From the NCBI GenBank assembly GCA_009869945.1, contig WIXG01000140.1, forward strand, positions 1 to 64,000: a DNA stretch of 64,000 nucleotides, given 5' to 3'. This stretch comes from Mesaphorura yosii. Taxonomy: Eukaryota > Arthropoda > Collembola > Poduromorpha > Tullbergiidae. This document shows positions 824-33,233 of this stretch, piece after piece (the stretch's first letter is position 1; each line of letters opens with the position of its first letter). Under the pieces are notes generated by a model. That model did no database searches. It had not been told where the DNA came from and saw only the letters and a program-made list of their open reading frames with translations. Made by a program: the position numbers and the translations under genes.

Positions 824-3800
824 AGCATGATTTTCCACGTGGAGGTGCATCCCATTTACAAATCATTTCAGCAGTGCGTTACATTCGGATTCTTCTCCAC
901 GCCCGAGGAAGAAATGATCTACAACATTCTGTCGCTGATTTTCATGTATTTCCTTCCGCTCGCCGTCATCTTTTTCACGTACGGAATGATCCTCTGCAAA
1001 ATAAGCAGGAAATCTCGCCAGCAGAGAGAATCGCGTAAGTCAACCACAACCGCGAAGAATTTCTATTAACACATTCGCATTCTTTGTCCGGCCGAAATTA
1101 AAATTCGAGAATCACGAATTCACGAATTGCGGATTCACGCCGTGCCTGCGAAAAATTCATTACACATTATTATTACAGGGCGAGATTTGACACAGGCGAG
1201 TGGCCGGATTTTATTGCGGCGCAACGAGGCGCTAAACCACATGGAACGGGCCAAAAGCCGGACTCTTCGCTTGACGTTTGTGATTGTAAGTGCTCTCGAT
1301 CCAATTGCACGACGGCTGCGGTTTGAATAGCTGGAGAGCAGCGAGCGCATTCTTTCACTGGCTGGTCTTTTTAATTAGGTTTTGTGCTTCGTGCTCTGCT
1401 GGACTCCGTATGTGGTCATAACACTCTGGTAAGGAAACTAATTTAATTCCAATTACTTTTCCCACATGAGACTCTGCGTATTGCCAGTATCACTCATCTT
1501 TTACGACTAGGCCTTAATTACACCCGTACGTTATTAAGTTTTATGGCTCTCGAACCCGTTTTCTCGTTCAAGGCCGGCCCACTTTTCATTAAGACGCGTG
1601 ACTCTCGTGCGGCCAAGCTTTGAGTGGTCCATAAACGAATTTCGAATTATTTTTTATCCTGCAGCCCGAAACACGTGCAGAAATGCGACAGGAACCGTTG
1701 TTGTCCTTTGAGCAGGAACTTTTTAATCAGGGGGCCTTTTAAGAAGTTTTTAATAACAAAATCTGCAGCGGAACAGCAAAGTTTATGTGGATTGGAAAAC
1801 TGAGAAGATGCGGAGAGGATGTGTGTTAACATTGAAAATTAATATGATCGCACGGCACGACCGATTTTCCTTTTGTTCACGTGTTCCATTTTCATTGATA
1901 GAAACCTTCCGGCTTCGGAAACTTAGTTTTATTAAATCTGGACCCCGAATTCCGCGCGCGGAGGTTCAATAAAACAGCAATTCGAAACATGTGCCGTGCT
2001 CATAATTTCGATAATAAAATCAGTTTTCTCTGCAGCAAGTGAAAGTTAGTGAAAGCAAGCAGTGTCGCTACTGGATTGCTGGTAAACATGTCCCGGACGC
2101 TCCTTGGAACTCAATAACCCGTATCTGAATCCGGTTCCGCGCTCGTCCCTCAAATATTTATAAACTCAAAATCAAATTCCATTTCTGTCCTGCATGGAGC
2201 TCCGCGTTTTGCATCCAGCCTTCCAACATAGGGAAAGTCAAATTCTCCCAAGTCTCCAAAGGGAATACGAGATCAGTTCCATTTTGTAAAAACGTGGAGA
2301 GAAAAACGAGTAAAATTTTGTTTCTGCATAATGCATAAAGCATGATGAAAATGCAGAAGAATTTGTTGCGCCAATTTGACATTCGTCTCGACCGATTTGA
2401 TGAGACGAAACGAAACGAGACGAGGAATTAGGCGAATGCGAGTGTAAAGCAGAACTAGAACGTGACCGTAACATCTTAAGGAATCACAAATGCTCAGCGT
2501 GCGGGCTGACATTTGACTAAAGTCGTGATTCGCGAATTCAGCCCTCTTTCTCTTGCACGTCGCGTCGCCCGCCTGTCAACTCTTTATTGGTACAAATTCA
2601 GACTCCCGCCGTGTCGCGCTGCGCTGACTGACTTTCACGAGACGAAAGGTGACACGCTTTCCAGGCCATTCCAGCACGGCACGCGCACAATTTTTCAATT
2701 TTGACTTTTTTTTGGACTTTCTTTGACTCGCTTGACGTCATGTCACGTCACGTCAAAGAAGCACACGAATCGAACGAAAGTTCGATAGTTCGAAGTTAAT
2801 ACAGATTTGCGCGCAGATTAAAGGGAATTATACAAAATCACGTAATGCAGTACGAAAACGAAAATCGAATCTGAGCGCGTGCGAAATAAATCGCGTTGTG
2901 GTCGTTTCTCACTTTTCAAGTGAATTGTAAATTCAGAACAAAAATATAAACAATGCAGTGCTCTGCCTGCCTGCCTGCGAGCGTTGCTTTCTTGTCTCAA
3001 AGTGAAAGTCAAAGAAAAGGACCACCACTACCGCCCGCAAGAGTGGTTCGCAATGATCTAGTATTATTAGCTGAAAGTAAACAATTCATGAAGCACGAGC
3101 ACATGCACGGGCGCACAGACGGCAGTGATTTACGAGTTATGTGCAAATATTTCATCGCATGAATACCAAGTAAAAGGCGAGATGACGACGACGTGTTTCG
3201 TGCTTCGACTTCGTCCAGTGCCTGAGAACTTTTTTAGATATCTGTCGCCAACGCCAAATAGGCCAAATTCAGTGTTGACAATTATTTATTGACGACTCCA
3301 TTCGAATTTTAGTGGCTACGTTTGTTGTGGCCATCGCAGGAAATGACCGATTGGCAAGCATGACAAGCAATGCTTTTGCAGTCGCTATTACGTCAATCTC
3401 TAACGATAGAGTTGCTTGCTAGAGTTTGAGGGCTGTTTTTGAGTTCACACGGGCGAATCCTCACACGGCCGCGCATATGTATAAAATCCTCTCAGGTCCG
3501 TCGGCTGGAGTCGGCGAGGCGAGTTGCTGAAGTGGAACTGGAAACTGTGGAAATTAAAGTACTTCATGCGTAAAGTTGGTCGGGCAATAAACAAATTGAC
3601 TCGTCCTTTCACGGAATCGGACAGGCATAAAGTTTGAAAACAATTCAGCTATTCATATAGGCCAAAGCCAAAGGCAGGGATTCGTGTCCCACGTTTTCGT
3701 TCATTGAGACTGAGAAAGGAGCCGAACTCGAAAGTCTGGACAACTTTCGTCATTACCTAAACTTTTATGATTTATGTCGCCAACCTCGACTTTGACTCCA

Positions 3801-4980
3801 CCAAATCCGTCTCACTTTTTTATTGTCTGCAGGTACATGTTTGACCGCGCGAGTGCGAAGCAGCTGGACGGGAAGATTCAGGACTTTCTCTTCATAATGG
3901 CGGTGGCCAACTCGTGCGTGAACCCGCTCATTTACGGGACGTACACGCGTGAGTGCCGCGAGTCGGTCACGACGTGCTGCGGCCAGTCAAAGTGCTGCGA
4001 GACGGAAGACACGCGCCGCCAGCAGCGTCTGGCGCTCCTCCGCACCGCCTCGCGCAAGTCAACTGGTAAGGACTCCAATGAGATGATAATCAACCAGCAA
4101 GCAAACGTCCGAAAGGGATTTTTAAATTCTAAAAGTGAGAATGAGGAACTTTCACCTCCCCTTCTTTTTTACTTTCACTTTTCACTCACGTTAACACAGC
4201 GCGCGGCATGCCGAGTGGCACTTCCAGGCTGTTGGCTAATTAAAATTACCTTTGTGGTTTCAGATGTTTTAGTTGTAGAATTTCTCACTTCCGAATCCGA
4301 CTCCGGACTCTGTCTGGAAATGGAAATGCCACTCGAACGAACCCGCCCTACGAATGGGAACGTGGCTCTTTTAAAAATTTCCACTGCCTACGCGAAATGT
4401 CAGCGGAAAAGTTCAGTTTCATCTTGCATCCGTGTTTATTTAATTGTTCTGTGGTTGCCTATGTGGTCTGCTTACAGATATCGATTTGATTTATTTTGTT
4501 TTAATTTCATATCGTGCTTTGCTTTAATTAATTTCAGCTTCGTTCCGCCTGGGCACGACGACCGCTCCATCGACGCCTCCCGTGCAGCAGGGTAACCAAG
4601 ACTTTCACTTCCCACAGTCCGCGGCGGCGATGCAGAGGAACAATTCGAGGGGCGTCACGACGCGAAGCGTCAAATTGAAGCTCCCCGAAGACAGCCGCGT
4701 TCGCGACCGCGATGACCCCGCTCTTGTGGTAGAATTCTCCGCGCACACGCCGCGCGAAGAGTCGAAATCCAACCACCTCCGTTTTCAGCCCTCCACTACG
4801 TACAAGCCCTCGAACGTCACAAATATTCCGCTGACTCACTACAACCGCATTAACCTGGAGAATCCCATCGACAAGCAGGCGCAGACGCAGCCTTGCTGCA
4901 CGGCGTTTGGGAAAAAGACGACCTGCACGTCCCTCGTCTACCGAACCAATCACGGCGCAATTCCTGGACCCAAGGTTTAA
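824..4980 (+). CDS. AKH/corazonin/GnRH-family neuropeptide receptor (GPCR), 3' part
   Basis: A class A G-protein-coupled receptor of the adipokinetic hormone/ACP/corazonin/GnRH family. Exons read as 824-1034, 1179-1285, 1379-1428, 3833-4065 and 4538-4980, with phases that join cleanly into 347 residues. The first exon holds extracellular loop 2 ([16 protein letters not shown]) and TM5. Next come the third intracellular loop ([14 protein letters not shown]), TM6 ([17 protein letters not shown]), and TM7 ([12 protein letters not shown], the NPxxY motif). The tail is long, Ser/Thr-rich and contains a Cys-rich stretch ([10 protein letters not shown]) that may be palmitoylated. TM1-TM4 lie upstream of the window. 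The intron between TM6 and TM7 is about 2.4 kb. The family is clear, but whether the ligand is AKH, ACP or corazonin cannot be decided by eye; FDRxSA after TM6 leans towards AKH/ACP receptors. Confidence 0.87.
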
Positions 4981-5295: not shown

Positions 5296-7902
5296 TCACA
5301 GCTCATCTTTTGGACTCGGCGTTGGTTCGCTCTCGCCCTCGGTCGCAGCGTTGATGCTGGTGGGTTCAGGCACCGGCTCTGGCTTGCCCAAACGACGCTG
5401 TTCGATGAAATCCTGCAAAGCAACACAGATTCCTCTTAAACTCGTAATTAAAGCCGAAGCCAGCGAATGAAGAAAGGCAAAAGCGCCGAAATAAATTCAT
5501 CACTTGCCTTGACGTGTGAGTATGATCGATCTCCTTCGTAGAGGTATGGCTCCTCCTTCCTCGTGCCTTTGATGAAAAATATTGTCGGGTACCCTTTCAC
5601 CATAAAGCCCGGTGGCACATCTAACATGAAAGGAAGGAGTTGCAACTGAGATCAAGATCAACTCATTCATTCAGCATCCGGCACTGCACGTCAGTCCTAC
5701 CATTCGTCGTTCCATCCATCTTGGCAAAGAGAAGTTTTGATGAACTCATGTTCTTGGCCAACTTCTTGAACGTCTTCTCAAACTCTTTGCAGTGCCCACA
5801 CCTGAGACGAGTTTAGAATTTATCAGCCTCATGCCTGACCTTATACGATTTCAGATTTCGCCGTGTGGGAAGCGTGTGATCATACATATTCTTACCATGG
5901 CGCGTAGATGTAAAACACGACGTCACGAGCGTGGTCGTCCTTCTTGTACACCTCCTCCTCAAAGTTGTCGGCCACCGCAATAAATACGGGACCATCCTGC
6001 CTGCTTGGAATCGGCTGGGATCTCCAGACTGGCTTCAGCTTGTCTACAAAATGCAAATGCAATGGAGCAAATCTTAATCAGACTCACGTGGTTGGCTTGG
6101 CTTACGGTCTTGCGCTTGCTGCACAAAGCTTCGCAGATCACTTCCATCAAAGTCGTCGACGGGGTCCATCCGATACTTGACCAGATTGTGGTCGTACCAT
6201 ATTGCATTCACGTCCACTCCCGAGTCGTCCAATTTCACGGCTTCTAGTTCTTCATTGTAGTCGTCTTCGTTTGAAATTGCGAACCTGGAATGCATTTCCA
6301 GAATTACAATTCTGCGGCTCCGGCTCCAGTTGTAATTTATGGCGTGTCTTACGTGATGGAAGGAAAATCCTTGGCCACTTCCAGAATCTTCTTGCGCACG
6401 ATTTGACTAGCTTTCTCGTACTGGTGATCGAAGTTCGCGTCGTAGTAAACGACAACCAAAGGACGTTTATGGTAGAATAAGACTTGGTTCTGTTTGTTGC
6501 GTTGGCCAACGAGAGGCCGATAATTTACTCGAATAAATTCGGCGATGTCGTCTCCTGAGCTCGTAACCTGTTAAAAATGGAGGTAAAAGTCTAGACAGCA
6601 TGAAAAACTGTCTGTAACTTCCGCAAAGTTAACATTTTACTCACATCAGTTAATTTCGACTCGTTTTGCTCGTACTCGGAATGGAAAACGGTGGGTTTCT
6701 TCACAATCACAACTTCTTCCCGAGCACCACTGAACGCCTTGCGTACTTCTTTGTTAAAGCTGTGGACGAATCTGAGCGGTTCGCCTCGTAGAAAGTTGGC
6801 TACTGCGAAGAATTCATCGTAGAACTTCGAGTTCTTGTTATCAAACAGGCCCACGACTGTTGGGATGTATCTTTCGATCCGATTTTGAAGTTCCTGTAGT
6901 GTTTTGCAGTTTGTGGTGGGGCTCTTGAGCTGCTCCTTCATGTACGAGACAATGCCAGGCGCTTCTCTGCTTCCTTTGTACTCGAACGCCCTGCCGTACC
7001 TGAAGACTAGCAGTGTCGGCCACCCTTTAACCTTGAATTGATCGGAAAGATCTTTGGCCTTCGTCCCGTCAATTTGCGCTAGCTTTACTCCGTACTCTTT
7101 CAAACTGGCCGCGGCGTTAATGTACTCGGGTTTAATCTGCAATGAAAGGACACATCAGAAAGAATTTAGGACATTCGAGAGTTCATTCTAATTAATCTTT
7201 ACCTTCTGGCAATGTTGACAATACTCGGCATAAAACAGGACGAGAACGAGAGGCTTGGGCGTTAGAAAGTCAATGAAATTTTCTGCTGCCAACTCAACGA
7301 CACTGCTAGGCGGTGGTTTCCAGTCGGGATCGGCTCTCGCCTTCATGTAGGCCACAATTCCGTCGGCGTTCCGTTCTCCGCTATATTCCTCCGACTTGAC
7401 GCCTTTGTGAAAAAGAAAGATCGTTGGGAAACCCTGGATTCTGTACTCTTGTGCCAAGGCAGTCTCCACCGTCGCGTCGACTTTCGCCAGCGTGACGTTC
7501 ACTTCTTCAATCTTCAACTCCCGGGAAGCTTGCGAATATTCTGGTGCTAGGGTCTTGCAGTGGCCACACCAAGGCGCGTAGAACTCGACCAGAACAAAAT
7601 CTCTGGTATGAATAACATGGTTGAAGTTTTGCTTCGTCAGTATGAGGACATCCTCCTCCTCCATCAACTCGTAATTCCCGTGAACATCGGTGAGAACTTC
7701 GACATCTGACCGAAATTCATAACCAATTGCCATTAATTTAACATATGAATGGAAACGCAGAACGCTAAATTCTTATGATTGTCTTACCACCATCGTTAAG
7801 TACAAAATTCTTCTTAATCTCTACTGACTCTTCCTCATTGGTCACTTCGCCGGCCAGTACCAGTAGACCAAGTAGCACTGATAAGTAGATGTGCTTGAAC
7901 AT
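5296..7902 (-). CDS. PDIA4: Protein disulfide-isomerase A4 (ERp72)
   Basis: ER-lumen thiol-disulfide oxidoreductase that forms and rearranges disulfides in secretory proteins. Nine exons (7788-7902, 7203-7705, 6645-7136, 6353-6567, 6106-6284, 5896-6043, 5701-5801, 5508-5620, 5296-5412) give 660 residues, near the usual ERp72 size. It starts with a signal peptide (MFKHIYLSVLLGLLVLAGEV) and ends in KDEL. Three thioredoxin modules are visible: APWCGHC at about 86-89, AEYCQHC at about 201-204, and APWCGHC at about 552-555. The order a0-a-b-b'-a' fits ERp72 rather than PDIA3 or PDIA1. The second site is unusual (CQHC, with Tyr instead of Trp before it). The last intron appears to use a GC donor. 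The gene converges on the receptor gene. Confidence 0.93.
5413..5507 (-). other. GC-AG intron in PDIA4
   Basis: The exon ends in CACGTCAAG and is followed by GCAAGTG. The acceptor is tttgcag. Frame and family length require removal of this segment: splicing gives SYSHVK joined to DFIEQRRLGK, while read-through meets a stop before KDEL. GC-AG introns are a minor but normal class for the major spliceosome. Confidence 0.75.
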
Positions 7903-9629: not shown

Positions 9630-10942
9630 TTACTTGTAGAGGAGATACTCCCGGATGGCGGGAGGCAAGTCAAGCTCATTTAGTCTATGCAGCCTCTCTT
9701 TCGTTACACATTGGCGAATCACTCTTCGACAAAGAAACTTCAACGGGAGGGGTTCGGCTGCAAGTGCAACGAATATGGTCAATTAGTAACTTATTACAAT
9801 TACACTCAGCCATTCAACACTAGCCTTAGTTGAGGTTGTGACTTACGATCTAAGCCGCCGATGTATTTCATCGTAATTTCGCAATGTCCCCAAACGGCCG
9901 AAACAATTGGAAATAATGTTTTTCCTTTCAGTCCACGGAAGGCAATGCCGAGATACTGACCTTCCACGACGAAGGCCAAGGTGCCTTCGTCCATGTCGAG
10001 AACAACTGCAATTCAATGCGTACACATTAATTTTCTACTTGTAGCCAGTAGTGAAGCCGATGAAACATTCGGCATACCTTGAAAGGTATCGGGGACTATA
10101 AAGTTTTCGTCGGGCTTAAGCAAGGAAGGGTAGGTGGTGCCGGACGCAGTGTTTTTGCTGTCGTGGAAGAGTTTATTTCTCCCGAGGTCCCAACCCCACG
10201 ATTGGTCATTGCTTCCGACCAAACTCTGCAAGTAAATGAGATCGTAATCCAGAAATTAGCATCAAGGGCGTTTAGACAGAGCTTTTGAACTGTGTACAAA
10301 TAATTATTTACCTGGTATCCCACGGAATTAAGCGGGGCATCTTGTGTGGCTACGCCTACGACGGCATGAGTTCCTCGTTGTCTAAAACAAAGAGTAACAT
10401 TGATTAATTGTCAGCGTTGGCACATGACAAGTGTTTGAGGAACAGGAGCTCTACGTACCTTGTGGACCAGTGAATTTCCCAAACGTGGAGTCCTTTCACG
10501 AATCCTGTTCTTCCTCGAATGCAATCTGTGCTCTGAGCCACCGGGTGACGATGGAATGTCAACTTATCATCTTCCTGTAACATCAGAAGAGAACACGAGT
10601 TTATGGTTTTTGCAATCGCAAACGCCAAAACAAAAATAGAAATTGCAATACGAATGTGTTCACGCACCTTAACAAAAATATTAAGTGATCTATCCTCTGA
10701 ATTCCACGAGTATTTTAGCTGCAGCTCTTTTGCAGCAGTCGGCATGTCCAAGAGCATATCGAGACGGGCTGGAGGTGTTAATTCTTCCGCTAGTTCTCGT
10801 GGACCTGGTGTTCTGTTTGCTGCTTCACGGCCAATGGCCTTTCCACCTCCAACTAAACCAGAAATCAAAGATTAAGTGACTACTAATCAAGACAATCCTC
10901 CAGCCTCCAGCTCGCAAACGAACCTGAAACTTTCTGCCCCAT
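9630..10942 (-). CDS. gus: SPRY domain-containing SOCS box protein (gustavus / SPSB1-4)
   Basis: Substrate-recognition subunit of an Elongin B/C-Cullin 5 ubiquitin ligase. In flies gustavus binds Vasa and Par-4-like targets through a short Asn-containing motif. Seven exons (10924-10942, 10668-10852, 10459-10574, 10312-10381, 10078-10225, 9847-10005, 9630-9757) give 274 residues, matching vertebrate SPSB1/4 (about 273). Diagnostic pieces: the start [28 protein letters not shown] joined to [51 protein letters not shown]; and [20 protein letters not shown]. The SOCS box at the end has [16 protein letters not shown] and ends YLLYK. Start chosen by homology; the first intron donor (GTTCGT) is weak. 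The frame stays open upstream to 11267, so a longer N-terminal isoform is possible. Confidence 0.94.
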
Positions 10943-11267
10943 GCTCATTCCACGAAGTCGTCCTCGTGTACGTGGGATATTTTGACCAGCGCGAAAATAA
11001 TGAGAACCGGACGAGGAAATGATGGTGGGAGTCACTGGAAACCCAAGCGAAGAAGGTGACTGCGCACACACTGCTGCAGTGGTAACTGAGTTTGAGTCAG
11101 CGGTACTTCGTCTTGTCGAAACGAAGTGTGGTAGCTCCGCCGTGGGTGAGGTCAGGTAGAAATTGGTTCGGGTGCCCGCAATTCTTGATTCAGGAAACAA
11201 ATGGGGACAGTTAAATGAAGAGCTGGAACGGGGAGAGCGTCTTTCTAGTAGATTGCGATGCTGAAGC
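10943..11267 (-). other. gustavus 5' exon: UTR or N-terminal extension
   Basis: The frame of the gustavus start codon stays open upstream for over 300 bases to an acceptor (ttttgcag) next to 11267. The translation is Ser/Arg/Thr-rich and ends [15 protein letters not shown]. It either encodes an isoform-specific N-terminal extension or is simply 5' UTR with no stop. A donor-like GTAAGT (12015-12020, minus strand) could end an upstream non-coding exon. Confidence 0.45.
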
Positions 11268-14200
11268 CTGCAAAACACAAATTGACGTCCAAATTAGAAT
11301 TAGACTAGAAGGTTGTTAAACCAGAGTTTGCGATTTGCGTGTGTGCTTGACCGGTCAAGAATTAATTGTATTTTAACGTTAGACTTCACGAATAAAGAGC
11401 AATACGCAATACTTCGCGGTACAAAAATACGATTCCACACTTTGTTTACACTTTGCGAACTCAAACGCGATAATGAAGTGCTTGAAGCGCTGATATGAAT
11501 CGCTTTGCTGCAGGGTGCATGTGTGCTGTGCGGATACCGATGCCTATGGATTTACGACGCATCAATCCTGAGCTGAGCTCCGCTCGTAACTCACCTTCGA
11601 TCTTTGGTTTTAAGATTACATTCATGATTATTCATTATTGAACACTCCTCTTCTGGTTCTAAATTAAAGTCCCGTGCAGAGCAGAGCCAACCTAATTGGA
11701 CAATGAAACGATGAAAGGGAAAATCACTTTTTCCTTTTCGGATAAAACTATCAAGCAGTACTTTGATTGGATTGCACGTTGCAAATTGGATACTAGAACG
11801 GCAAAAATTATGCGTCACTAAATTCAACTCCACTCGACAATTGATTTAACCTTAATGCTTAACCAGGATATGATAAACTGAAACTAAAATCAAAAGTAAA
11901 GGTAAATGCTAAATGCACTTGGGAAGGATGAGTTCACTACTTAATTAAATTAAGCACAAGCACATGGGTCCATCGTCCACGCTAACTTGAACTTGATACT
12001 TGAATTAAACTGCAACTTACTCCAAGAATGAAGCAACGCCACGCTGCAGGTAGGCTGCAGAGGCGAAGAATCGATTCTTTGTCTGAGAACTGGTTATAAG
12101 GCATGGGAGTCAGTCATCACGTTATAAAAACAACAATAAAAAGCGCAATAATGCGCCACCTTAGTCACTGGTCAGGCCTACACATTGTCAGAGGCGCAGA
12201 TCACATCATCGCGTGTGAGAAAAAAGCCCAAGCGCAGTGCTTTGCGTTTGCGTTGGTAATGAATTTGCGACGACACGACTGGTGAATTGTCTTATCACAA
12301 GGAAAAGTCTGAGTATTTGCTGCTGGATGCACAAACAACAATTCAATGTTAGCTCATTGCCAAATAAAGTGCACACGATTATCCAACACTGATTACGATT
12401 GCACGTACCGCACGAGGGTCTTGGGATTGGGCAGTTTGGGGTGCTAATGCTAATGCTGGTGCAGTTGGACCGAGCCCCTGCCTAATAAATTGTATTGGTT
12501 ATTACCTTAAATGACTTGTACTCTAGACGCGCTGTGGCACTTATCCATTGTTAATTGTGATTGCAGCCAGATCACTGCCGACCAGCCATTGTATTGTGAA
12601 CGGCGGATGCATTTTAGTTGCTTGGTTGTAGTCTTAGTTGGTTTGACTAACTTTGGCAGGCTACTTGCAGTACTTGCAGATGATTATTATCGTGGCGTGG
12701 TGGTAATGATAATGACTGTAGTAGTGAACGTGAACTTAACACCAAGACTGTAAGATTTGTTTCCTTTATCCTCGCAACAACTTCAAGAATACATGGCGAG
12801 AATATTTATACATTTTATTTGGGTATGTAAATTGTGAGCGTACTAAGCGTACAACAGAGAACAGACTGCTGCAGCAGCAGTGGAAGGCAGGCAACCCAGC
12901 AAGGTCAGCTCGATCGAGTCTTTCTTCGTCAGAACCACAGCCACGGCTGAAAAACAGTGCTGCTTAGAGCATTTGCTTGGAGTATTTGGAGTTGGAACCC
13001 CGTGCCAGCAGAGACTGTATTCGTAGTTACAAGCAGCTAAGCTAAGCCAACGCACATACGGTACAAGAACAAAGTTGTTCCTGCTGTAGTTCAGTGGGGA
13101 TCGAGCAACACAATTATGTTTATGCTACGCTACTTCGTTCGCTTGGAACGGAGCGCGTGCAGGCAGGCAGCAGGATTCGTCATCAGTGCTTGCTTGTTTG
13201 GTAGGGTTCAGGGTTTATGCTAACTAAACATGGCATGGCATGGAAAAAGACGGCAGGCAGGCAACAGATTGCCTAAGAGAATTCTCATCTTCTTTGTCAG
13301 CCAAGCCAGAACTATGTTGCAAGCATGCAAGCATGCACGGATACAAAAACAGTGTTCTTGGAGCGAGACTGTTTTTTCGAGTTGATTTGTAGCATTAAGT
13401 TTCTATTTCCATATGTAATCTAAGGCCAGGCCAAGTTCTCATTTGCCTTTGCCTTGCCTTGCTATTTCCCTTTTCGCTGTGGGGCTGCGTGCATGCTTCG
13501 AGCGACTGCGACTGAAACGATAAAACGACTAGCCTGGCCTTGCCTCTGCCCATTATTGAGATATTTACACAATTTACTGATTATTAATAAGTAACAAGTC
13601 TCACAAGCACAGGGCACAGGGGGCACAGGCTGCTGAATGGGAATCAACGTTCGTTGAGTTTGGTTGGATTCAGGCTCAGGAGTTCAGCAGCATCCGGTGC
13701 GAAATGCAAAAACACAATCAAGCGCATGTGTTGCACTTTGCATTGAGAAGCCGGAATTTGGTTTTATTGTCTTGTTTCCGATTGCCGCGCGGCTGGCAAT
13801 GGCAATTGGGAATTAGCAAATTTGTGCATTACCTTTACCTTCGTCTTGTCGGAGGCGCGTCCTTCCTTCTCCTTCACCCATTCTCATCGCGAAATGCGAA
13901 ATGCGAAAAATTGCACAGCACAGCACTCGTCAACAACGCGAATCCCCAAAGGTCTCAAAGGTAAAGATGATCGCTCGATGGCTCGCACGGCACAAAGGTT
14001 AAGTGTTATTGTTAGTTGAGATTGAGAAAAATGCAACAATTAATTGTGGTTGTCTGCCTGCGAGCTGCGACCTGCCTTGCAATGAGATTCAAGGCCCACA
14101 ATTCACAATCCACGACCACGACAAGCAAAGCACGTACACGCTCGAGCTCGTTCTTCAATCACAATCACAATTGCAATAAATCCCAAATCCTGTGTGCCTG

Positions 14201-19996: not shown

Positions 19997-20004
19997 TATA
20001 AAAG
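19997..20004 (+). promoter_or_regulatory. TATA box (TATAAAAG) of the repeat-protein gene
   Basis: A consensus TATAAAAG lies 204 bases before the ATG at 20208. Transcription would start near 20028, giving a 5' UTR of about 180 bases. Strong TATA boxes are typical of tissue-specific, highly expressed genes, which suits a secreted structural protein. The divergent dehydrogenase starts at 19236, so the intergenic space is about 970 bp. Confidence 0.55.
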
Positions 20005-20207
20005 GCTGGAGCGCCATGCCAATTTTTTAGTCCAGGCGAGCATCTTGCCCATGAAAGAGCCGTGTCCTCGTCAGTCGCCGTCGTGTCCTTCGCTTAATTG
20101 TTGGTTGACAACTTGTGGTCAATTTCCTGCTCGTGGTTCGAGTCTGGCCTTTCACTTCATAAAGGCTGACACCTCATCTGGAAAATCAAAAAGCTAGTTG
20201 GATCAAA

Positions 20208-23200
20208 ATGGTAAGTGTCAGAATTCAGAACTTAGAAGGCGAATTTGATTAGTTGATGTCAATGCTTTGTGGTGTAACTTTTAGCGTTTTAGCCTTAACT
20301 GACGGTGACAACTTCATAATACCGTTATCACGTCGTAAAAGCTTTTAATGCTACTGTCACAAAAATCGTGCATGCTCCGACAGTCGAAAGGGTTCAATCC
20401 TTTCGTTCAAGGTCGTGATATTGAACTCCATTGAATCCTGCCTGCGCTGCGCCTGCCCTCCATGACTCCACGCGGCTTCGGGTTCATTTAACTGTTTAAC
20501 ACTTTCAACTTTCTCTTTACCTTCGAGTTCCGAGTAATCTAATAATCCCCTTTTCGTGAGTAAAACGTAACCGACCAGACTTGAGTTTTGAGAATTGAGA
20601 CTGACATGAAACGAAATACGAAACGTAATCTCTGTGATGTACTTGTTTGTATACAGATTCGCTGCTCGGGCGTAGCATTTTTGATCCTCCACGTGGTCTG
20701 CTCTTCTACTTTCGCCTGGAGAACCGATTTCATCTCGGCGACGGCGAGTGATCCGTCATTGCCATTATCCGCTATAAAGAATCACGAAAGCTTTGACGAT
20801 TTGACAAGTCTTCTCGGAAGAGAAAGCGGAGAAAGTAGTCAAAATCTAGCTAAGCTGGCTCCGAATGCTCTTCAGCACGCCCACGTCGAAGTCGATGACA
20901 ATGAAATGTCATTCGGAGATGTCATACGTGAGTACACTTTAAATAAAATGTAAAATGAAGTAAAGGTCAATGAATCGAGTTATTTGAAGCGTAATAAAGT
21001 CGGTTTGAGGTCACCGCGAGCGAAACAGTCACTGGAGACTTTGAAAACTCGAAACTATCATTTGTCACAAATTCAGACCGACGACTCTGAGTTCCTTCAC
21101 GGGCGGCCAACATTTGGTTAATTCTCCGTAATTTCATTATTTAACGACCAACTGTTTCATTTTGCAGCGGCAACAGCTTGTTTTCAGTTTTGTTTATGCT
21201 TATGACGTATGGTTTTGCAAAGAACGCGAACTACGAAGTTTAACTTTTACCTTTTACTTTTCCCACAGACGCAGACGCCTCGACCGCTGGGGACGTAGAG
21301 CAATGGCAATGGCACACCAGCTCCAGTCTCAACCAAGACTCGGTCGACTCGGTGGTTGCGGTCGACGACGATGTAGATGCAGCAGAAGAAACTACGCACA
21401 AGGAGAGATCGGTGAACCCAGCAGCACAGGCACAGGCACAAGCACTGGAAAAGGGAACGTCATTAAACTCAAGAACTGACAAACACGTGGTAATTAAGAA
21501 CTTTAATCTCACCGGACCGTTTCGAAGCACTGTACTGCACTGCACTTTCATACATTAAGCATTAAGAAGGAAACAAGCCGACCAACTTTTATGGGTTTCT
21601 TGTTCCTGCTTTTCTTCGTTTCCCCAGGCGCCGTGGTCCAGAAATACTGCAGCAAAGTTGGAAGACGAAGACGAAGGAGATGACAAGTCGATGATCTCCA
21701 AAGACAAAGACGGGAATTCCTTGACACTGAACCCGGAAGATTTGCTCCGCCAATTTGAAGACTTGTGGAAGCACAACCGATTTATTAATCCAGGCTCTCT
21801 CCATTCACGATCACGGCAACGGCAACGCCGATCAACAGACACCCTTGAAGTGGAGGTTCCGGGCAAACTGGAAAATGTCGACGGAATTGAACTTGATGCG
21901 GAGGAGCTGAAAGGTTCGCTTGCCCAACAAATACTTTTCGCAATTGTGAAGCAGTACGTTAAGAGAATGCTCGACAACCTGCTTTCTATAAGAGAAAAAT
22001 TCGCATTTCGACTTCTGCGGTTAACTTCTGGAGACGATTTCTTGCGGCTGCCCGATATTCTTCAAGATTTGAGTGTAAGCCCTGAGCGCCCGCTTTTTCT
22101 CTTGGCAGGAGGCGCCAAATCGGCGAAAGAGCAGGTCGTCGAAGCTGCAGCCAGCAGTTTTAGCTCCGAAGGTGAGTTGAAGTTGCTGGTAGCTGCAACT
22201 AATTAATTGCAACTATAAATGATGAGTTGGCTCGCATTCTAAGGACCTGTCACAGTCACAACGCTGAAGAGAAGAGTGACGACAATTTCAGGCGTGAACA
22301 GCAACGGACGTCAGCAGGAACCAAATAAATCGCAATTGGCTGGCGGTGAAATTTCGTTGTTTAGCACCATCACAAAGCCCCAACCCCCCATCAAAGAAGG
22401 AAGTTCACAGCTGCCTGAATTCCATACCGTTCCAAATCCGCTTATTATCTCGTACTTAGAAAAGGAGCCAGGTAAGGCGCCAAATTATTCCTTTATCTAC
22501 ATACACTCACTGTACTGCCCAGCTACCCAGTGAGTACGTTCCTCAGTTTCTGAAGCCCCTTGCTGCGACTTTCTCCTCCAGATTCCCAACCCGCATTCCG
22601 GGCAGCAGCGATAGAAGGAGTGGACTCAGATTCCGCCCACGAAGCACGAGAAATCAAGGTTAACGTTAAGCAGAATCAGAACGTGGATGCTTCGACGAGT
22701 GGGGCTGCTGGAGCGAACGTAAACGTGGAGCAGAGTCAGAATGCAGCAGTTAATGTCGGATCGGGAGTGGATGGCCTTCCAGTTGGCTACGGGGCAGGGG
22801 CGGCTCCGTCGATGGATGTGAACGTGAACCAGGATCAGAATGCGAACGTGAACAATGTTGGTGGAGGCGACGGTGGAATTCCGATCCCGCTCATGAGCTC
22901 AGGCGGAGTCAGTGTCAACGTGCACCAGTCACAAAATGCCATGGTCAATGCCAACAGTGAACTCGGAATCGGTTCAGGACTCGGTTATCTTGATTCTGGA
23001 TATCAGCCTGGCTCGGTGGACGTGAACGTGGATCAGAATCAGAACGCGGACGTTAATGTTCTTGGCGGCGGTGGTGGCATCAACATGATTCCACTTGGTG
23101 GCAACGTGGGCGTCGGCGTCGACGTGGATATCGACCAGGCACAGAACGCTATGATTAACACTGCCTATGCTGGCACTGGCCCGGAGTTCCTTGGCCATCA

Positions 23201-26108
23201 ACCTTCTTCTGCTCCTTCGGTGGATGTCAGCTTGAGTCAGAATCAGAACGCGAACGTCGACGTTTCGAGCTTGGGCGTAGGCGTGGGTGGGCTCACCGGA
23301 GGCGGTGGCATGAATTACTTGACAGCACCCGTAGGCAGCAGCGGTGGCAGCACAAGCGTCAATGTGGATCAGACTCAAAACGCGATTGTCAATGCCAACG
23401 TCGACAGCGGGCTCCCGCTAGGTTACGGTGCCATTGGGCAGCCTGGCTACGGCTCTCAACCCTCAACGTCGGTGGATGTCGACATGAGCCAGAATTCGAA
23501 CCTCAACGTCGACATTGACAACGATGGCTTAGCCGGAACGGGTTTCATGCCTCTGGGTGGCGGCATCGGTAGCGGAACCAGCGTAAATATTGACCAGTCC
23601 CAGAATGCTGACGTCAACGTCGACCTTGCCAACGTCGGTGATGGGATGCACGGCTACGGCTATGGAAATGGCATAAATCCTGGCGTCGGTGGCGTAAATG
23701 TGAATCTGGACCAGACTCAGAACGCGATAGTGAACGCCAACACGGCCAACGCTAACATTCGACCGGGACTCGGACTCGGGTACCTTGGCGGCACTGGAGA
23801 CATTGGCAGCTCCGTGAATGTGGACGTGAACCAGGATCAGAACTCAGCTGTGAACGTGCGCCCAGGCTACGGCTACCTTCCATCGCGGCCAGGATACGGC
23901 TACCAGCCCTCCAGTGTGAACGTGGACGTGGACCAGTCACAGAACGCCGTGGTCAACACCGGCGTAGGCGTGGGCACCGTCCCGGTGCTGGGTTATGGCT
24001 ACGACTCCGACCTGTCTCCGTACGTGCCCCTGCCAACCACAACGAACCTGAACCTGAATCAGGACGCTCACATGGCCGTCGCGGGTTCGCAACCACAATT
24101 CGGAGGCGGAGGGTCCGGTGTCAATTTCGGAGTGTCACAGAATCAAAATGCGAACGCAAACGTTGGAGTTGTCACTCGGCCAGGAGCTGGACCAGGCTTT
24201 GTTCCTGTCCCGGTGCCCTACGCGCCATACACGCCTTTGCCCTCGACGTCCGTGAATGTCAACCAGAATCAAGACACAAGCGTCTCGACGTCGACGAGCG
24301 GTGGTCAGCCGACGTGGCCGGCCCCTGCACCAGTGTCATTGCCCTTCAGGCCTTACCCAGGAGGGCCACAGCCGTCGTCCGTCAACGTGGACGTGAATCA
24401 GAATCAGGACGCAAGTGTGTCCGTTGATCAGCGCCCTTCGTCATACATTCCGCATCCGTACGGGCCACTATTGCCAATGCCATCGCAGGTGCTGCCCTCC
24501 TCAACGTCTATCGACGTCGACATGAATCAAGACACAAACGTGAACGTGAACGCGAACGCTCCGCACTCACAGTCTCCGTTTGCAAATCCTCTCCGACCTC
24601 CGTACCCGTACGGGCCATCGCCGCTACCATCGGCCGCTGCGTCTGACATTGACGTGAGCCTGAATCAGAATCAGGGCACCAGCATTAACGTATCGCCCCC
24701 CGTCGGGGTCGCGGGCACGGGTCCGTACGGGCCTTATCCATACCAGCCCACGTACGCGTACGGCCCGGTTCTGGCTCCGGCACCGATCAACCCAAACGTG
24801 GACGTGAACGTCAACATGGACCAGAATGCCAACATCAACGTTCGACCCAGTGACCAATTCTACCCACGGCCCGGTGGGTCTTTCGTATCGGTCCCCTCAC
24901 CCGCACCGTTTTTTTGGCCATCATCGCCGGCTTCTGTGAATGTGGACTTAAATCAAGCCTCAAACGCTGGCGTGTCCGTGTCAGGAGTCCAGCCTGCAGG
25001 GTACGGCGCCGGCGGCCTTTGCGCGCATCCGTACCCGTATCCGTACGGCGGTGGTGATGGTGGTGGGACCAACGTCAACATAGACCAGACCCAAAACGCA
25101 AACGTCAACGTGAGGCCTGGCAGTGGCAATGGCGGGTTCTACCCGGTGCCAACTCCATACTGGCCAGCGCCCGGACCCACACCTTCTTCGGGTTCCGATG
25201 TGGACTTGAATGTGTCGCAGAATCAGCAGGCAGATGTGTCCGTTACCGGGGGCGGCCAACGTCCTTCGTACGCGTACGGCCCGCTGTATGGCGGCGGTGG
25301 CTACGGCCCAGGGCCGGGGACTGTGACTGGGCCAGCAACAAGCGTGAACATCGACCAGACGCAAGATGCGGTCGTCAACGTCAACACACGTCCCGGCTAC
25401 GCCAACGGCAACGGTTACGGTCCAGTCCCGTACCCGTACGGGCCTGCACCTGAATTCGTACTCGCGCCGACTTCTGTCGACGTTGACGTGAATCAGAATC
25501 AGCAGTCGGGCGTGTCAGTTTCAAGCGCCCAGCCTTATGGGCCAGCGCCTGTGGCGGTGCCGGTCCGTCCAGCGTACCTGACTCCAGCGGCGCTGGCAGG
25601 GACAGACTCGCAGACGAATGTCAACGTTGAACAATCCCAGAATGCGGCTGTAAACGTGCGGCCAGGCGCAGGCGGGTATCAGCCAGGGCTACTGCAAGTG
25701 CCTGTGCGGCCCTACGGCTCAGGCACGGGTTCGTCAACGTCGATGAACGTGGACGTGAACCAGAATCAGGCAACAAGCGTCTCCGTGGCAGGGTCGGGTG
25801 GCCAGCCTTATGGAGCGGGGCCGTACCCGTATCCTGGACTTACAGGGTTTCGGCCTTACGATGAAGGATTAGCCGTTGATGGCGATCAATTTTGGGCAGC
25901 TCTGCTATCAGGACAGTTTGACAGCGGGCCGTACCTCCCCGTGAACGACTACGTGGCCCGCCCGACCACCGTTCAGTACCTCCGCCCGCGGCCGTACCTC
26001 TCCGCCTTCGCCCAAGCATTCCTCGACCAAGTCATGAGGCAGGAGGACCCGCAATGGCGCCCGCAGCAGTACGACGAAATCGTGCCTTATCGCGAAATCG
26101 AAGTCTAG
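20208..26108 (+). CDS. Large secreted repeat protein, 27 Val/Asn/Gln repeats, no known family
   Basis: I do not recognise this family. Six exons (20208-20210, 20657-20927, 21269-21489, 21628-22171, 22292-22471, 22582-26108) join in frame to 1,581 residues. Exon 1 codes only the initiator Met and is followed at once by GTAAGT. Residues 1-23 form a signal peptide (CSGVAFLILHVVCSSTFA, then Trp). Residues 24-431 are acidic, low in Cys, with a helical-looking segment (QQILFAIVKQYVKRMLDNLL) and an RQRR furin-type site at about 230-233. Residues 432-1475 carry 27 repeats with core S/D-V-N/D-V-D-Q-x-Q-N-A-x-V-N-V, separated by Gly/Pro/Tyr-rich linkers. A 106-residue unique tail follows. The mature chain has one Cys (about 1220). 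An extracellular matrix, cuticle, egg-coat or fibre role is inferred from secretion and composition only. Confidence 0.88.
22656..25787 (+). repeat. Array of 27 coding repeats of about 30-50 residues
   Basis: Each unit has a 12-16 residue core such as NVNVEQSQNAAVNV or DVNVDQNQNADVNV plus a variable linker. N-terminal linkers are Gly-rich (LGGGGGINMIPLGG). Towards the C-terminus they become Pro/Tyr-rich (YAYGPLYGGGGYGPGPG, YPYGPAP). Two core types alternate for most of the array: QSQNA/QTQNA cores ending VNV, and QNQ cores ending VSV. At the DNA level the units are diverged, so this is not a recent tandem expansion. Confidence 0.9.
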
Positions 26109-26315: not shown

Positions 26316-26321
26316 AATAAA
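26316..26321 (+). terminator. Poly(A) signal AATAAA of the repeat-protein gene
   Basis: AATAAA lies 208 bases after the stop codon at 26108, with a second one at 26350-26355. With the opposing signal at 26204-26209 this predicts overlapping antisense 3' ends of about 100-150 bases. Confidence 0.5.
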
Positions 26322-26503
26322 TTATTTTGTGAATTTTGTCACAAGCCCGAATAAAAATGGAACGTTCACAGTAATTGCATTAAGCAGAATGCACATTAGC
26401 TCACATTTTAAGCATTAAGAATGTCAGCTCCAGCTGACGAGTTGATCAATTGACTAGAATTAAGGAACGAATAGATTTCAGTAATTCAGCACGCCATGCC
26501 AAT

Positions 26504-29500
26504 TCACAGCATGCTTTCATTTCTTCCTCCGAGGAAGGAGCCGCAAAGCGCCGCCGACGTCGATTTCTTCGGGCGACAGTTATTTGGGAGGATCAACGTC
26601 GCCCCGTTGGCGGTAGCAGTGGCTGCGCAGGAGGTGGGGTCGTCTCTGATCATTTGGTGGTTGTAGACTGGCTTCTCGATATAATTTCGACTGTGACGAG
26701 TTGTCGCCCAGTTGTAAGAGCCGTGACCTTGACAGCCTTGACTGCTTCCGCTGCTGCTGCTGCTCGCGCTGTTCCGCGCCGCCTGCGCCTTGCCTTGATG
26801 AACAGCCGCACTGGCGTTGTTCTTTGAGTGGTAGTGCGTTGAGTACCTGTAAAGCGATGCGTGCCCACAATCGAGTTTCCTCACTCCGTTCTTCCTCACT
26901 AGCGCCATCGTTAGCTCCGGCGACGTGGATGCGGACGTGGAGATGGTCGTTGGCGTGTTGTTGTTGTTGATGTTGAGTGGCAGGTGCACGGACGTCGTCG
27001 TCGTGAGTGTGAGGAAGGTCCCGTTCCGGTGGAAGATAAACTGCTTTCCCTTCCGACCGCAAAGGCGGCGAAAGCCGTTGCGGAACTTTGTGCTCATGGT
27101 GTTGTAAAGGATGGGGTTAATGGCGGAGTTGATGTAGGACATGATGCGGCAGAAGTACAACGCGTTGTAGTACGCTTCCGAGTGATTTTCCAGCAATTCG
27201 CCAGCGTCCGTGAACACCGCCAGGAGCGTCAGGAGGCGAAAGGGAAGAAGACACAGGAAAAAGACAAAGACGACGGTGCCCAGCCTGCAGGAACAAAATT
27301 ACTGCTGAATTGCCTATAAATTAAGTGATCGAGTAAACTTACATAAGGACGACTTGTTTCCTCCCACGCTGGTTTTCATTCTTGACGGTCAGCTCGGACT
27401 GATCCATCGTCAGCCTCTTCGAGATCATCCAGAACGTGATGAGGAGGATGACGAGCGGGAGGAGGAAGAAGAGGATGACGGACGAGATTGTGTAAAAGTC
27501 TGGCCAGAAGGTGCCCGCCACGACAATGCACTTGGGCTCCAGCTCGCCATTCTCGTTCTGCCACTCGTGGTACTCCGTCATCAAATACGTCGGGCTGCAA
27601 TGCAAAAAGAGAAAATATAAAGAATACCACCGCTGCTGATAAGAAGATAGCAAATGCAGTGCTGACATTGAGAACCGTCTATTTTCTATTGCCAAGCGCG
27701 AAATATGAAAAATGAATTTTATTGTGCAGTGTCTATCAAAATTCCGGGTTCCGGGATGCGATTTTTTTGTAGCCGGTCGTCATCGTCAAATTCAAATCTG
27801 ACGTGAGCGTGGCTTGCATTTCACGGCCCACGCACGCGAGATGAAGAGAGAGAGAAGATAAATGAGTTTCCTATGTACGAGTATCGCAATTCTGGAAAAG
27901 TGGAAGTGAAATTGATGGAGAAAGCATATCAGTAAACATCATAAACTAATGCGAAAGGGAAGGGGCTTTCGGATGTTTGAAGCCTTTTTGGGCAGACAGG
28001 CAGGCTTTTGTCATGAAAATGGTGAAGTGATGGATGAATAGAAATGAAGTCTCGTTATTAGGTTTCCGAAAACAACGGGGTACGCGAGACGAGTCGTGTC
28101 TGGTTTGAAATTTAAAGCCAGTTCGGAATCGACCGAGCCCACTCTAAAGAAAACAGAGCAGGCATTGGAAATGACTTCACAAGGGCCAGAAGCCAGGAAC
28201 TCCCGTACGACGGTCAAAATTGGACTCCTCAACGTTAACAACATAGGACAAGTTGATGGTTATTAAGCTATTATCAAAGTCAACGTAAAATAAACCTGCA
28301 ACTGAGGACTTTTCACTTATCAACTGTCTTCGCTGGCAGCTGAACTGATAACGCGCTACGCCCCCTTGAATTGCATTCTCACGACGACCCGGGGCCGAAA
28401 CCGAGACTCATTCAGTTCTAGATGAAAGGCTTTGATCTAGAATTGAACGAACTATCAGCCTGAACTTTGCAGCACTTTACAATTTACAACTTTGTCACTA
28501 AAATTAGTATGAAAAGTGGAAAATCACACACAGAAGCAGGGCTGGAGTTTCGACTTTGGATTTGGCTGGAATGCTGCAAACAAGCCTGTTTGACTTCTGA
28601 TCGTATCATGTTTCACGTATGTTGAGTGATATTGGGTATTAATTCAATTACTGTATGCTGTCTCGAACTTTCACGACTGTCACCTGCCCCTACTTTGACT
28701 TTCATGGAATTTGGAAAATGTATTGTATTGTCAAAGGAGCCGTGTGAGTGCGGACTTTATTGTATTGGCTTCTCGTCTGCCAACTTTCTGGCTTTTGCTT
28801 TCACCCATTTAATTTTGTCGGCAGTCTTTTGTGTGACAAATTTCAAAGGAGGCAATAAAGTAGTTAAATGCAAAGGTTTTAGTTACCTTGAAATGGCGAT
28901 GGCTGAAATCCACACGACTGAGCAAATCCAGACGGCCCTGGCTCGAGTGCAGACGTAATTGGCCTGCAGGGGCGAGCAAATCGCGTAGTAGCGCTCGAAG
29001 CTGATGGCCAGGATCGTCAGCACCGAGGCATGACAGACAATCAACTCGAGGACGGGCACCAGCTTACCTGAAATGAAACAATTCAAAGGACACGATGCGA
29101 TTAAGGGAATTAACTCAACTTCTTCACCTCTTCTTCCTCTCCACTTTTCTCTTATTCTCTTTCATTCACATTTACTCTACTTACATTTAATGCTCTCATT
29201 TTTGTCGGAATAAAACAAGTTTAATCTGGCAATAACCGGGCGCTGTGGAGCTATTTACTTTCGCGGTAGTTTTGGCCGTGACAAACAACTCTACAAGAAA
29301 AGTTTACATTTACATGATTTACATGAACATGGAAAGGTTTCCCGACTCAATTTCCAGCAGTAAATTTCAACTTTATTCACCAAACCGCACAACACAGGAC
29401 TGCGTTATTAAATTTCGGTTTCGCCAATTTAGAAAGTGAGTTCCGAAGAATTTAGTACACGAAGCAAGAAAGTTGATCGTGGTCGTGGTAAAATGAAGGC

Positions 29501-30401
29501 AGGCATTCCGAATTAATGACGAAGAGGTAGCGCAGTCTTAAGAATGAAATTCTTTAGTCTGACATCTACACAAGACGAAGACGCAAGTCGTAAATGGAAA
29601 CTGAGGCAAGACGATGATGACGCAATAGGAATTAGAACCCGCACGTGCACTGCACTGCACTGCACTGCACACCGTGCAGAAGCAATAATTAATGTCCTCG
29701 TCAGAGTCGTCGTGAGAGATACAGAAACAGAGACAGAAACCGGATCCAATTAAACTTTGAATACTGAATACTTGGAAGCTTAAAGGTTAAAGGAATTAGA
29801 GCTAGAGCCAGCTATTCAAAAACAAAAAAACTTCCCACGTGGAAGGAAAAAACAAAGGGAAAATGGATTATAGTCTTCGGAAACCTGATCTTTTTCGAAT
29901 TTGCCATTGTTTTTCAGTACAGTGCATTCATTTGTAGGGAATTGGGTCAGGATTGAATTGCTCACGCGCCCGTCAAATTTGATGACCGCCGTAAGAAAAC
30001 AACAAGACAATTATATAGGTTTACTTACACATGGTTGGGCCAAATAGCCAGATGTCTGGTTGGTAGAGGACTTCAAGCAGGGCAGTGGGCGTGATGATGA
30101 GGATGACGAGGAGGTCGGCGAGGGAGAGGTTGACGAGGAAGTAGTTGGTGGAGGTGCGCATGTCACGCGAGGCGCAGATGACGAGCATCACCATCGCGTT
30201 GCCGACCGTGCCCGCAATCAGAATGATGATGATGACCACCGAGACCACGACGCGCGTGTACAGCGGAAGCGATGACGAGAGCGATTCAATTACCGACGTG
30301 TAATTGAACGCGCTCTCGAGCTCGTTCTCGACCTGCGACTCCAGCTGCAGAAACTCCTGACCCACTTCGATTAACGTTGACCCAGCACTCTGGTTCTCCA
30401 T
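26504..30401 (-). CDS. ETHR: Ecdysis-triggering hormone receptor (class A GPCR)
   Basis: Receptor for ecdysis-triggering hormones, related to TRH and neuromedin-U receptors, coupled to Gq in insects. Four coding exons (30029-30401, 28887-29067, 27343-27594, 26504-27284) give 528 residues. The N-terminus has an N-glycosylation site (NYTS). TM1 has GTVGNAMVMLV; TM2 NLSLADLLVILI; the conserved Cys is in GPTMCKLVPVLEL; the DRY box is ERYYAICSPLQANYVCTRAR. TM5 is followed by RKQVVLMLGTVVFVFFLCLL in TM6, and TM7 ends NSAINPILYNTMSTKFRNGF, a strong ETHR signature. The C-tail is long and Ser/Thr/Asn-rich. An acceptor at 30417-30420 shows that the 5' UTR is spliced. Only one set of TM4-C-terminal exons is present. 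Confidence 0.92.
29646..29670. repeat. (TGCAC)5 microsatellite in ETHR intron
   Basis: Five perfect copies of the pentamer in the first coding intron of ETHR. Nothing indicates a function. Confidence 0.8.
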
Positions 30402-33233
30402 TGCTCGGACAGGGCACTGCAAATAAACGTTACGCAAATTTAACGCCTTTGTTAAGCACCGTCGTTTGCAAAAGTAAGAAGCACTGCAATTCGACGCGGA
30501 GAAAGTAAATAGCAAGCAGCGAAAATAAGGGCAAATGGCAAATGGAGAATTGCGAATTATTCGGGCATTCGCATTCTCATTGGCCATTGACTTACTTTCG
30601 CCTTTCGCATTTTCATGAAGAGGCAGTCAGCATGGAATTAAATTCCAAAGTGGCAGTTTGCATTCGCATTCTCAGTTCGCGATTCCATCGATCACTTTCC
30701 TAAATTAAGATGACACAATTCTCTTCTCAACGACGCGACGACGACGCAGGTCGATGCTGCTAAATTAAGTAGCGAATTCGAATTGTGGACGCCAAACGAC
30801 TTGTTTTGAAAAATCGAAGTCAATTACTACGTCGTCGATTTGATTTGTTTTCTATCTCGTTATTCTGGCTTTTTGCTGTCTATTCGTGTCTCGCGTGTTT
30901 TGCTTTTTACGTACATCTCATTTGTGCCGTGCCACCTGCGTACGCATTGTGAAAGCCTGTCACTTTACTCTACGGTGCGTCACGTTACACGTGTCGTACT
31001 GATGAAATGAGCAATGAATGTCAATGGCACACGTACACCTGAAAAGAGTGGCTGAAAGCAGAAGCCATTCAAATGCGATCACGATAATTTCGTAATGTAC
31101 GAGCGTAAATGCGTGGTAAAAATAGCTTGTTTCTCGTTTACTCTTCCTTTCTTTTGTTCCACCCGGCCAGGCCTTGGCTTTGGCTAATTCGCAATGGAAC
31201 GGCACTCGGCACTCGCTTTTCCTGTGAAATTTCTTTTGGTTAAGTTCGAGTTCGAGACTCAACGAAAATCCATACTCGAGCCTCTTTAATTCTGGGCATT
31301 TTGAAGTGTGTCGTGTCGAGTATCGAACGGTGAAGGCACGAGTTGTCAATAGTCAATAGACGCTGAATATAATCGTTGGACCCGAATTCTACGAAAATTT
31401 CGTTCAAACGTTTCGTTTCGTCAAATACGAGCGTTGTAATCGGATTATGAAGAAATAACATTTTGAGGTTCACTGTTCGTGCTCGCGTGTGCGTTCATGC
31501 TAAATTAAAAGCCTGGAGGGGACCGCAAGCGCAGAAGCAGTTAAGTGAGATCCAATTTCGCATTCCGGATTTATTATATTGAATATGGAATGAGACTTCG
31601 TGCGTAATCATTTCACGACCAACTCTTTTGTAGACAGACGAAAAGAAAGCCGGGACTTTCGCTTTATACATTCAGCCCGACGGCGTAGTTTAATGATTGA
31701 TCGGTCTCGATCCTGCCATGCTTGGCCGGATCGCCAACTTGTGGCATGGCATGGCACTCGCTACCGTTTGCTTGCGTAGTCGTCATAAATTAAGAGCCGC
31801 AGACTCATTCTTGCGGCAGGATGTTTATTTGAAGAAGTTGACTCCATATTTTCCTCTTTTTCGAATTTGCAACCGCACTGCCCGAATAATTTATTCAAAA
31901 ATTTACAGAAAAGACTGCAGTAAAAATTTCAGTCCTCCGTCGTTTTCTCTTCAGATTTGACCCGTTCCGGTCGTTCATTAATTCATTGTACTGCACTCAC
32001 TGGAGAAATGAGTCCAAATCTGAATGGATGGAATAGAGGCATTCAAGCGAAAAAGGTGAGAGGCTAAGGCTGTGATGGAAATTTGATCTCATTACTATGC
32101 AGTCGGGAATGACTGGGTGGCCTGGCCAACATTTCTGGAGTGTGCAAGGAAACAACTTCACTGCCGCCGCCGCTGCTGCCGCTGTTGGTTTTTGCATTTA
32201 CGTCATGATTCTGTCACAACAAAACAGTCACAGCCATAGCGCAACGGTTGCATTAATTTGCAATTCATTTCTCCGTTTTTCCGTCCAAAATACCGGAAAG
32301 TCTCTTCTCGAAAGAGTCCAATGCAGGAGAAAGTTAAGCCCTGATTGAGGTCAGCGCAGGTGTCGTGGGCGGACGCCGACGCAGACTTTGAGAATGCTGA
32401 TGCGAATGCGGTCAATCCGCGGCAATCTGATCAGGATGCATGCATAAAATTTAATTTGGCTTGCGCGTATGCATATTTCGCTATTTGGCGTGCTGAAGAA
32501 CGGTATGCAAGATTCTGGATTCATTTCTTGGAACCTCCTTTGCCTTTGCGGCATAATTGAATTTGTTCTGAATGAAAAATGCTAATATGATTGAAAGTTC
32601 TCGAAAGATGATGTATGCTTTTGGCTGTATTTACTTTTCTTTGCAGAATCCGGTAAGAACGAGATGAAATGGCAAATAAAATTATGACGAATTCGTATTA
32701 GCATCAGTCACACAAGTAAATAGGAAATAGGAGAATCGTGTACTCTCGCAAATCTGAGCAAATCAATCTTGTCGCCATTAAGTAGGGCATGGGGCATGGA
32801 AGAATATCATTGCATTATTTTGGAGCACCGTCTGTCATTCATAATATGCTTTTCTTTCCAAATCTCATCGCTCTTCTCATTCACAAATTCAATTTACTGC
32901 GTCGTCGGCAGTCAGTCGTCGTGGCCTTCAACCGAAAAAAGTCGGGAAGCGAAGGAAGAGAATGAAATTATTGTTCGTCCATTAAAAAATTTAATGCATA
33001 CTTGAGAAAATGCATCCGAAAAAATGAAAGCCACGCAAAATTCACTTTCACAGTCTTCAGTTTTTTTACAAGCCCCACTTTCCCTTTTACTACGAGTGGG
33101 CTTGGGTTAGCTTCGGCTTCAGAGAATCGCAAAGTGTGTTCAATGTCAAATGAAGGGGACAAGCCACAACGAATTTGAGTGAAGTATGAATTCATGTATG
33201 CAAATTCAGACAATTGAGTAGTGAGAAAAATGT

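Follow-up and report, generated by a model that had tools for sequence, protein, structure and literature searches.

Gene organization at the locus

Within the window, a 64,000-nucleotide stretch of Mesaphorura yosii DNA, we modelled from sequence a gene for a large repeat protein on the forward strand (20208-26108). Its six coding exons encode 1,597 residues, indicating that the length of about 1,581 residues given by a first-pass annotation was slightly low. Exon 1 (20208..20210) contributes only the ATG. Together with this ATG, exon 2 (20657..20927) encodes a hydrophobic signal-like segment (residues 1-21). Exon 3 (21269..21489) falls within an acidic segment (residues 22-233, pI 4.8), exon 4 (21628..22171) runs from residue 166 on and is followed by exon 5 (22244..22471), and exon 6 (22582..26108) carries the repeat array, the C-terminal segment and the stop codon. 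All five introns (446, 341, 138, 72 and 110 bases) have GT-AG borders. The exon phases are compatible and the joined frame is free of stops, whereas the same frame left unspliced contains 39. Around the last exon, an uninterrupted reading frame runs for 1,184 codons (22554-26108). A TATA box (TATAAAAGG, 19997..20005, + strand) lies upstream, and two poly(A) signal-like hexamers, starting at 26316 and 26350 (26316..26355, + strand), lie downstream. Judged by these signals, the locus looks like a real and complete animal gene, and both the six-exon structure with matching phases and the TATA box of the first-pass annotation were recovered.

Other genes were seen in the same window. A PDIA4 (ERp72-type) gene ending in KDEL lies about 12 kb upstream (5296-7902, - strand). 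Its best named matches were from Orchesella dallaii (62% identity) and Folsomia candida (59%); named crustaceans reached at most 49% among the 120 matches listed, and one match without an organism name (478 residues, jgi) showed 68% over 71% of the query. Overall, these matches fit best with a springtail source. Exons resembling a rhodopsin-type GPCR occupy 640-4980 (+ strand). The segment 3771-4595 gave a 7tm_1 match below the cut-off and a weak match to the apelin receptor (E 7e-5), and 640-1038 had no Pfam match; by eye, we take this gene to resemble an adipokinetic/GnRH-type receptor. Exons of at least one rhodopsin-type GPCR were also found at 26504-30626 (- strand), with the 3' end about 400 bases downstream of the repeat-protein gene on the opposite strand; the best PDB matches of 30021-30626 were orexin and neuromedin-U receptors. 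At 9650-11300 (- strand) are exons of what is presumably, by eye, an SPRY-domain protein like gustavus/SPSB; two pieces of it scanned against Pfam gave no match. The window further contains a Tc1-type transposase-like fragment at 1-213 (- strand; best HTH_Tnp_Tc3_2, E 3e-4, below the cut-off) and an exon with a FANCD2 match at 58660-59190 (+ strand; E 7e-13).

Architecture of the repeat protein

The protein consists, in order, of the signal-like segment, the acidic segment, a segment modelled as helices, the repeat array and a short unique C-terminus (residues 1511-1597; 25845..26108, + strand). A signal peptide was reported earlier; by composition, a hydrophobic signal-like start is present at residues 1-21, and its identity as a signal peptide is a prediction. 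The acidic segment closes with RQRR (residues 230-233; 21820..21831, + strand), a furin-like motif at which the chain may be cleaved. There are three cysteines in the whole protein, two of them within the signal-like segment. The array is nearly free of Lys and Cys and has a pI of about 4.1-4.2, and His makes up 0.7% of the exon-6 protein. Past residue 25, the Kyte-Doolittle 19-residue mean peaked at 1.04, which by this crude test indicates no transmembrane segment. In 80-residue windows, the Gly maximum was 19/80 (23.75%), and none of the 1,497 windows reached 25%.

The exon-4 segment was modelled with AlphaFold2 from a single sequence and gave helices at a pLDDT of 47. A fragment with three repeats, modelled with eight internal-repeat rows, gave a pLDDT of 43, and no more than two of its repeats showed short strands. 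At such poor confidence, both models are uninformative.

Twenty-seven cores with strict alternation

The array (residues 447-1491; 22653..25787, + strand) spans about 1,045 residues and contains 27 linker-separated cores of 15 residues each, aligned on the first Gln. This agrees with the 27 repeats over more than 1,000 residues counted in the first-pass annotation. The core pattern is V-n-V-n-V-n-Q-x-Q-N-A-x-V-n-V, in which the n positions are Asn, Asp or Ser; written more narrowly, it is V-N/D-V-N/D-V-N/D-Q-x-Q-N-A-x-V-N-V. The first Q position is Gln in 26/27 cores and the second in 23/27, and Val stands four residues ahead of the first Q in 24/27. The two faces of such a segment differ sharply: V, I, L, M or F occupies 120/216 positions on face one vs 6/189 on face two. 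Face one is composed mainly of V (94), Q (49), A (26), T (15) and I (11), and face two of N (91), D (41) and S (27). These position counts bear out the Val/Asn/Asp/Gln core proposed earlier. The Fisher test for the alternation gave p 2e-34, a value overstated because the cores arose as copies of one another. An amphipathic beta strand is expected to show just such strict alternation, here over about 15 residues, and we infer that the cores adopt this form.

We composed a core-matching expression post hoc from the cores themselves. It recovered all 27 cores (29 matches counting overlaps) and gave 0 matches in the rest of the protein. When the array region was shuffled 5,000 times, a mean of 0.017 matches and a maximum of 1 resulted, and two further matches occurred elsewhere among all six reading frames of the 64-kb window. 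Tandem Repeats Finder (score 50) did not list the array at this locus, indicating that the agreement among the cores lies at the protein level and not at the DNA level.

The linkers, described earlier as rich in Gly, Pro and Tyr, change in composition along the array. Linkers 1-13 contain 31% Gly, and linkers 14-26 contain 23% Pro, 17.5% Gly and 8% Tyr. Core-to-core spacing ranges from 20 to 50 residues, with spacings two through six at 32-36. Similarity averaged 0.494 between cores two apart, above the mean of 0.432 for all pairs (permutation p 0.0008, with eight lags tested), whereas neighbouring cores showed no such excess (0.403). It therefore seems, from this pattern of similarity, that the array expanded partly by duplication of a two-core unit.

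To assess constraint on the cores, we compared all pairs of the 27 by an uncorrected Nei-Gojobori-type count. This comparison, which is made among repeats of one gene rather than between species and on non-independent pairs, gave pS 0.756 vs pN 0.339, the latter biased downward because the cores were chosen by motif. Synonymous sites are saturated, so the core copies should be old, and the protein pattern has nonetheless been kept. These data suggest that the core motif is old and under purifying selection, and the contrast between pS and pN provides the strongest evidence here for a function of the repeat.

Searches for relatives and for further copies

The exon-6 protein had a sole Pfam match at E up to 1, to DUF6470 (E 0.14), which is below the cut-off; the N-terminal 476 residues had none at the same limit. 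Chitin_bind_4 (PF00379) was thus not matched at E up to 1 by either the exon-6 protein or the first 476 residues, and no spidroin N- or C-terminal domain was among the Pfam matches at this limit. Three-core fragments gave no Pfam match for any of eight members (0/8) at E up to 10. The exon-6 protein matched nothing in NCBIfam and PHROGs or among PDB sequences, each at E up to 1. A three-core profile, from an alignment that draws on 24 of the 27 cores, returned four PDB matches with E 0.8-7 (a chitin elicitor receptor kinase and antibody chains), which we attribute to chance.

We then searched 5.8 billion proteins, taking as candidates those that share exact 5-residue words with the query and have 0.55-1.75 times its length. 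No relative of the whole protein was found at E up to 0.01 among 7,988 scored candidates, which were those with the most words in common with the query, and none of residues 165-440 was found at E up to 1 among 4,571 scored candidates; a search of this design may miss relatives that are distant, unannotated or outside the length limits. Its only positive control was PDIA4, a conserved, non-repetitive enzyme, whose springtail relatives the searched set does contain. Bacterial or viral origin was considered and rejected: pattern searches with the exon-6 protein gave 30 and 297 matches in bacterial and viral contigs, of which tblastn confirmed none, and these collections, being prokaryotic or viral, are uninformative on animals. 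Exact-word and topic searches of the open-access literature found no description of the core motif in print. The earlier failure to tie the protein to a known family therefore held across Pfam, NCBIfam, PHROGs, PDB and the 5.8 billion proteins, none of which gave a significant match.

In the springtail's own genome (93.0 Mb, 1,127 contigs), exon 6, exon 4 and the C-terminus (query 25854-26108) each matched only themselves. A core DNA pattern gave 13 matches genome-wide, 12 of them inside the gene, vs 4 for the control. With a looser DNA pattern, coding for V[ND]V[ND]V[ND]Q, there were 17 matches, 5 inside the gene and 12 outside. The 12 outside exceed the 4 of the reversed control. All 12 sit in frames of 29-113 residues, none holding a core, and six-frame inspection of the surrounding 6 kb at every one of these sites revealed no core either. 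A multigene family was therefore rejected, and the gene is apparently single-copy in its genome.

Matches to the R&R cuticle domain numbered 66 in this genome, indicating an arthropod, and many of them are carried by one contig, C314. In one stretch of this contig, a frame from base 736 encodes 559 residues that begin signal-like and include both a long low-complexity region of Ser, Ala, Gly and Thr and an R&R-type segment; this is perhaps a large structural cuticle protein. An odorant-receptor test on the genome gave no match, but its control likewise matched nowhere, so that absence does not follow.

Proposed assembly and alternatives

We consider it probable that this apparently single-copy springtail gene encodes a structural protein, secreted and silk-like, whose chain is an alternating block copolymer. 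Every core would supply a single beta strand of 15 residues; pairing would take place between chains, and the paired strands would stack as cross-beta sheets, held by Val packing and by ladders of Gln and Asn side chains. The flexible linkers would supply extensibility. The acidic array would stay soluble until a change in pH or ions, and its low pI suggests that assembly is triggered by pH or cations. The N-terminal propeptide would be cut off at RQRR on secretion, ahead of assembly. The product may be an extracellular fibre or coat, such as a cuticle surface layer, an egg coat, a spermatophore stalk or an adhesive. Springtail cuticle is described as containing glycine-rich structural proteins (PMC9861782), and stalked spermatophores are described from springtails (PMC5821437). 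Long alternating strands tend to be avoided by natural proteins; if the block-copolymer reading is right, the gene would represent a new sequence solution for animal beta-sheet materials, in which such strands are used 27 times per chain, and a concrete candidate gene for materials of the springtail surface, egg or spermatophore.

A more tentative possibility is an orphan, secreted springtail functional amyloid, its 27 amphipathic V/N/Q strands closing like a zipper to give cross-beta fibres. A Gln-Gln-Asn ladder would join the strands, the origin would be lineage-specific, and the material would be unique to these springtails.

Two further readings appear unlikely. The cores could instead build a curli-like functional amyloid within one chain, consecutive cores stacking as beta-solenoid rungs so that the molecule itself is a short fibril. 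The strand-like cores, the Gln and Asn at fixed positions, which resemble curlin repeats, and the run of five successive spacings of 32-36 residues after the first would suit such stacking. It is opposed by the overall variation in spacing and the Pro-rich later linkers, and Pfam gave no curlin match at E up to 1, or at E up to 10 with three-core fragments. The AlphaFold2 model with internal-repeat rows gave no solenoid, a result of little weight at its pLDDT. The protein might alternatively be a resilin-type elastic cuticle matrix, mostly disordered and cross-linked through tyrosine, with the cores as weak sticky points; this we also hold to be improbable. Resilin is marked by repeats of the GGRPSDSYGAP type together with an R&R domain. 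In the repeat protein, motif matches to such repeats number 0 (YGAP 0), and Pfam gave no R&R match at E up to 1. The Pro/Gly/Tyr-rich linkers of its second half, the 66 R&R matches in the genome and the glycine-rich cuticle proteins described from springtails (PMC9861782) fit an elastic matrix; a disordered elastomer, however, would not need the strict alternation seen in the cores.

The antifreeze proteins of springtails are small and form G-x-x bundles from long arrays of this tripeptide. Polyproline-II antifreeze proteins are made by Collembola, according to one report (PMC10235112), and the array is partly Gly-rich, but its G-x-x runs do not exceed four triplets and its size and architecture are unlike those proteins, making an antifreeze or ice-binding role highly improbable. 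A non-functional locus (an open frame arisen by chance, a pseudogene or an artefact of the assembly) would accord with the lack of a detected homologue and with a gene model drawn from sequence alone, and is just as far-fetched given the 1,184-codon frame, the six phase-matched exons with GT-AG introns, the TATA and poly(A) signals, and the restrained nonsynonymous change beside saturated synonymous change among the cores.

Comparison with known systems

Squid suckerins alternate beta-forming, Ala/Thr/His-rich blocks with Gly/Tyr-rich blocks and prolines. The repeat protein shares with them the alternation of blocks inferred to form beta structure with Gly/Tyr-rich ones and prolines, and differs in composition, with its low His content (0.7%) and GGY occurring only twice. 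Curlin (CsgA) is a bacterial functional amyloid with strand repeats, conserved Gln, Asn and Ala, and hydrophobic alternation. The cores described here have the same conserved residues, hydrophobic alternation and, probably, strand form. They differ from it in their Q-x-Q-N spacing, the absence of a central Gly turn and the long linkers; curlin is bacterial, whereas this is an intron-bearing animal gene with no Pfam curlin match at E up to 1.

Lacewing egg-stalk silk is composed of Gly, Ala and Ser. In one source, low-complexity repeats of barnacle silk-like cement proteins and of lacewing cross-beta egg-stalk silk are tied to nanofibres or cross-beta silk (PMC5099703). The protein described here is comparable in its low-complexity repeats, but the barnacle repeats in that source consist of Gly, Ala, Ser and Thr, in contrast to the Val/Asn/Asp/Gln strands found here.

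A further close comparison is with the silk-like structural proteins (SLSPs), which one survey defines by a signal peptide, no transmembrane segment and at least 25% Gly per 80-residue window, and describes as mostly lineage-restricted, with many origins (PMC4944945). Such lineage restriction fits the absence of relatives here. The repeat protein is likewise repetitive, predicted to be secreted, equipped with Gly-rich linkers, devoid of any known domain and apparently lineage-restricted. It differs in its Gly maximum of 23.75%, narrowly under the defining 25%, and in its ordered blocks, which are V/N/Q strands, with AAAAA and GAGAG absent. Lineage-restricted silk-like repeat proteins are thus a known general kind, on the evidence of that survey (PMC4944945), and what appears to be new here is the core motif, which was matched by no searched family. 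Because its Gly peak lies below 25%, a screen for 25% Gly in 80 residues misses this protein, and similar ones may be overlooked elsewhere.
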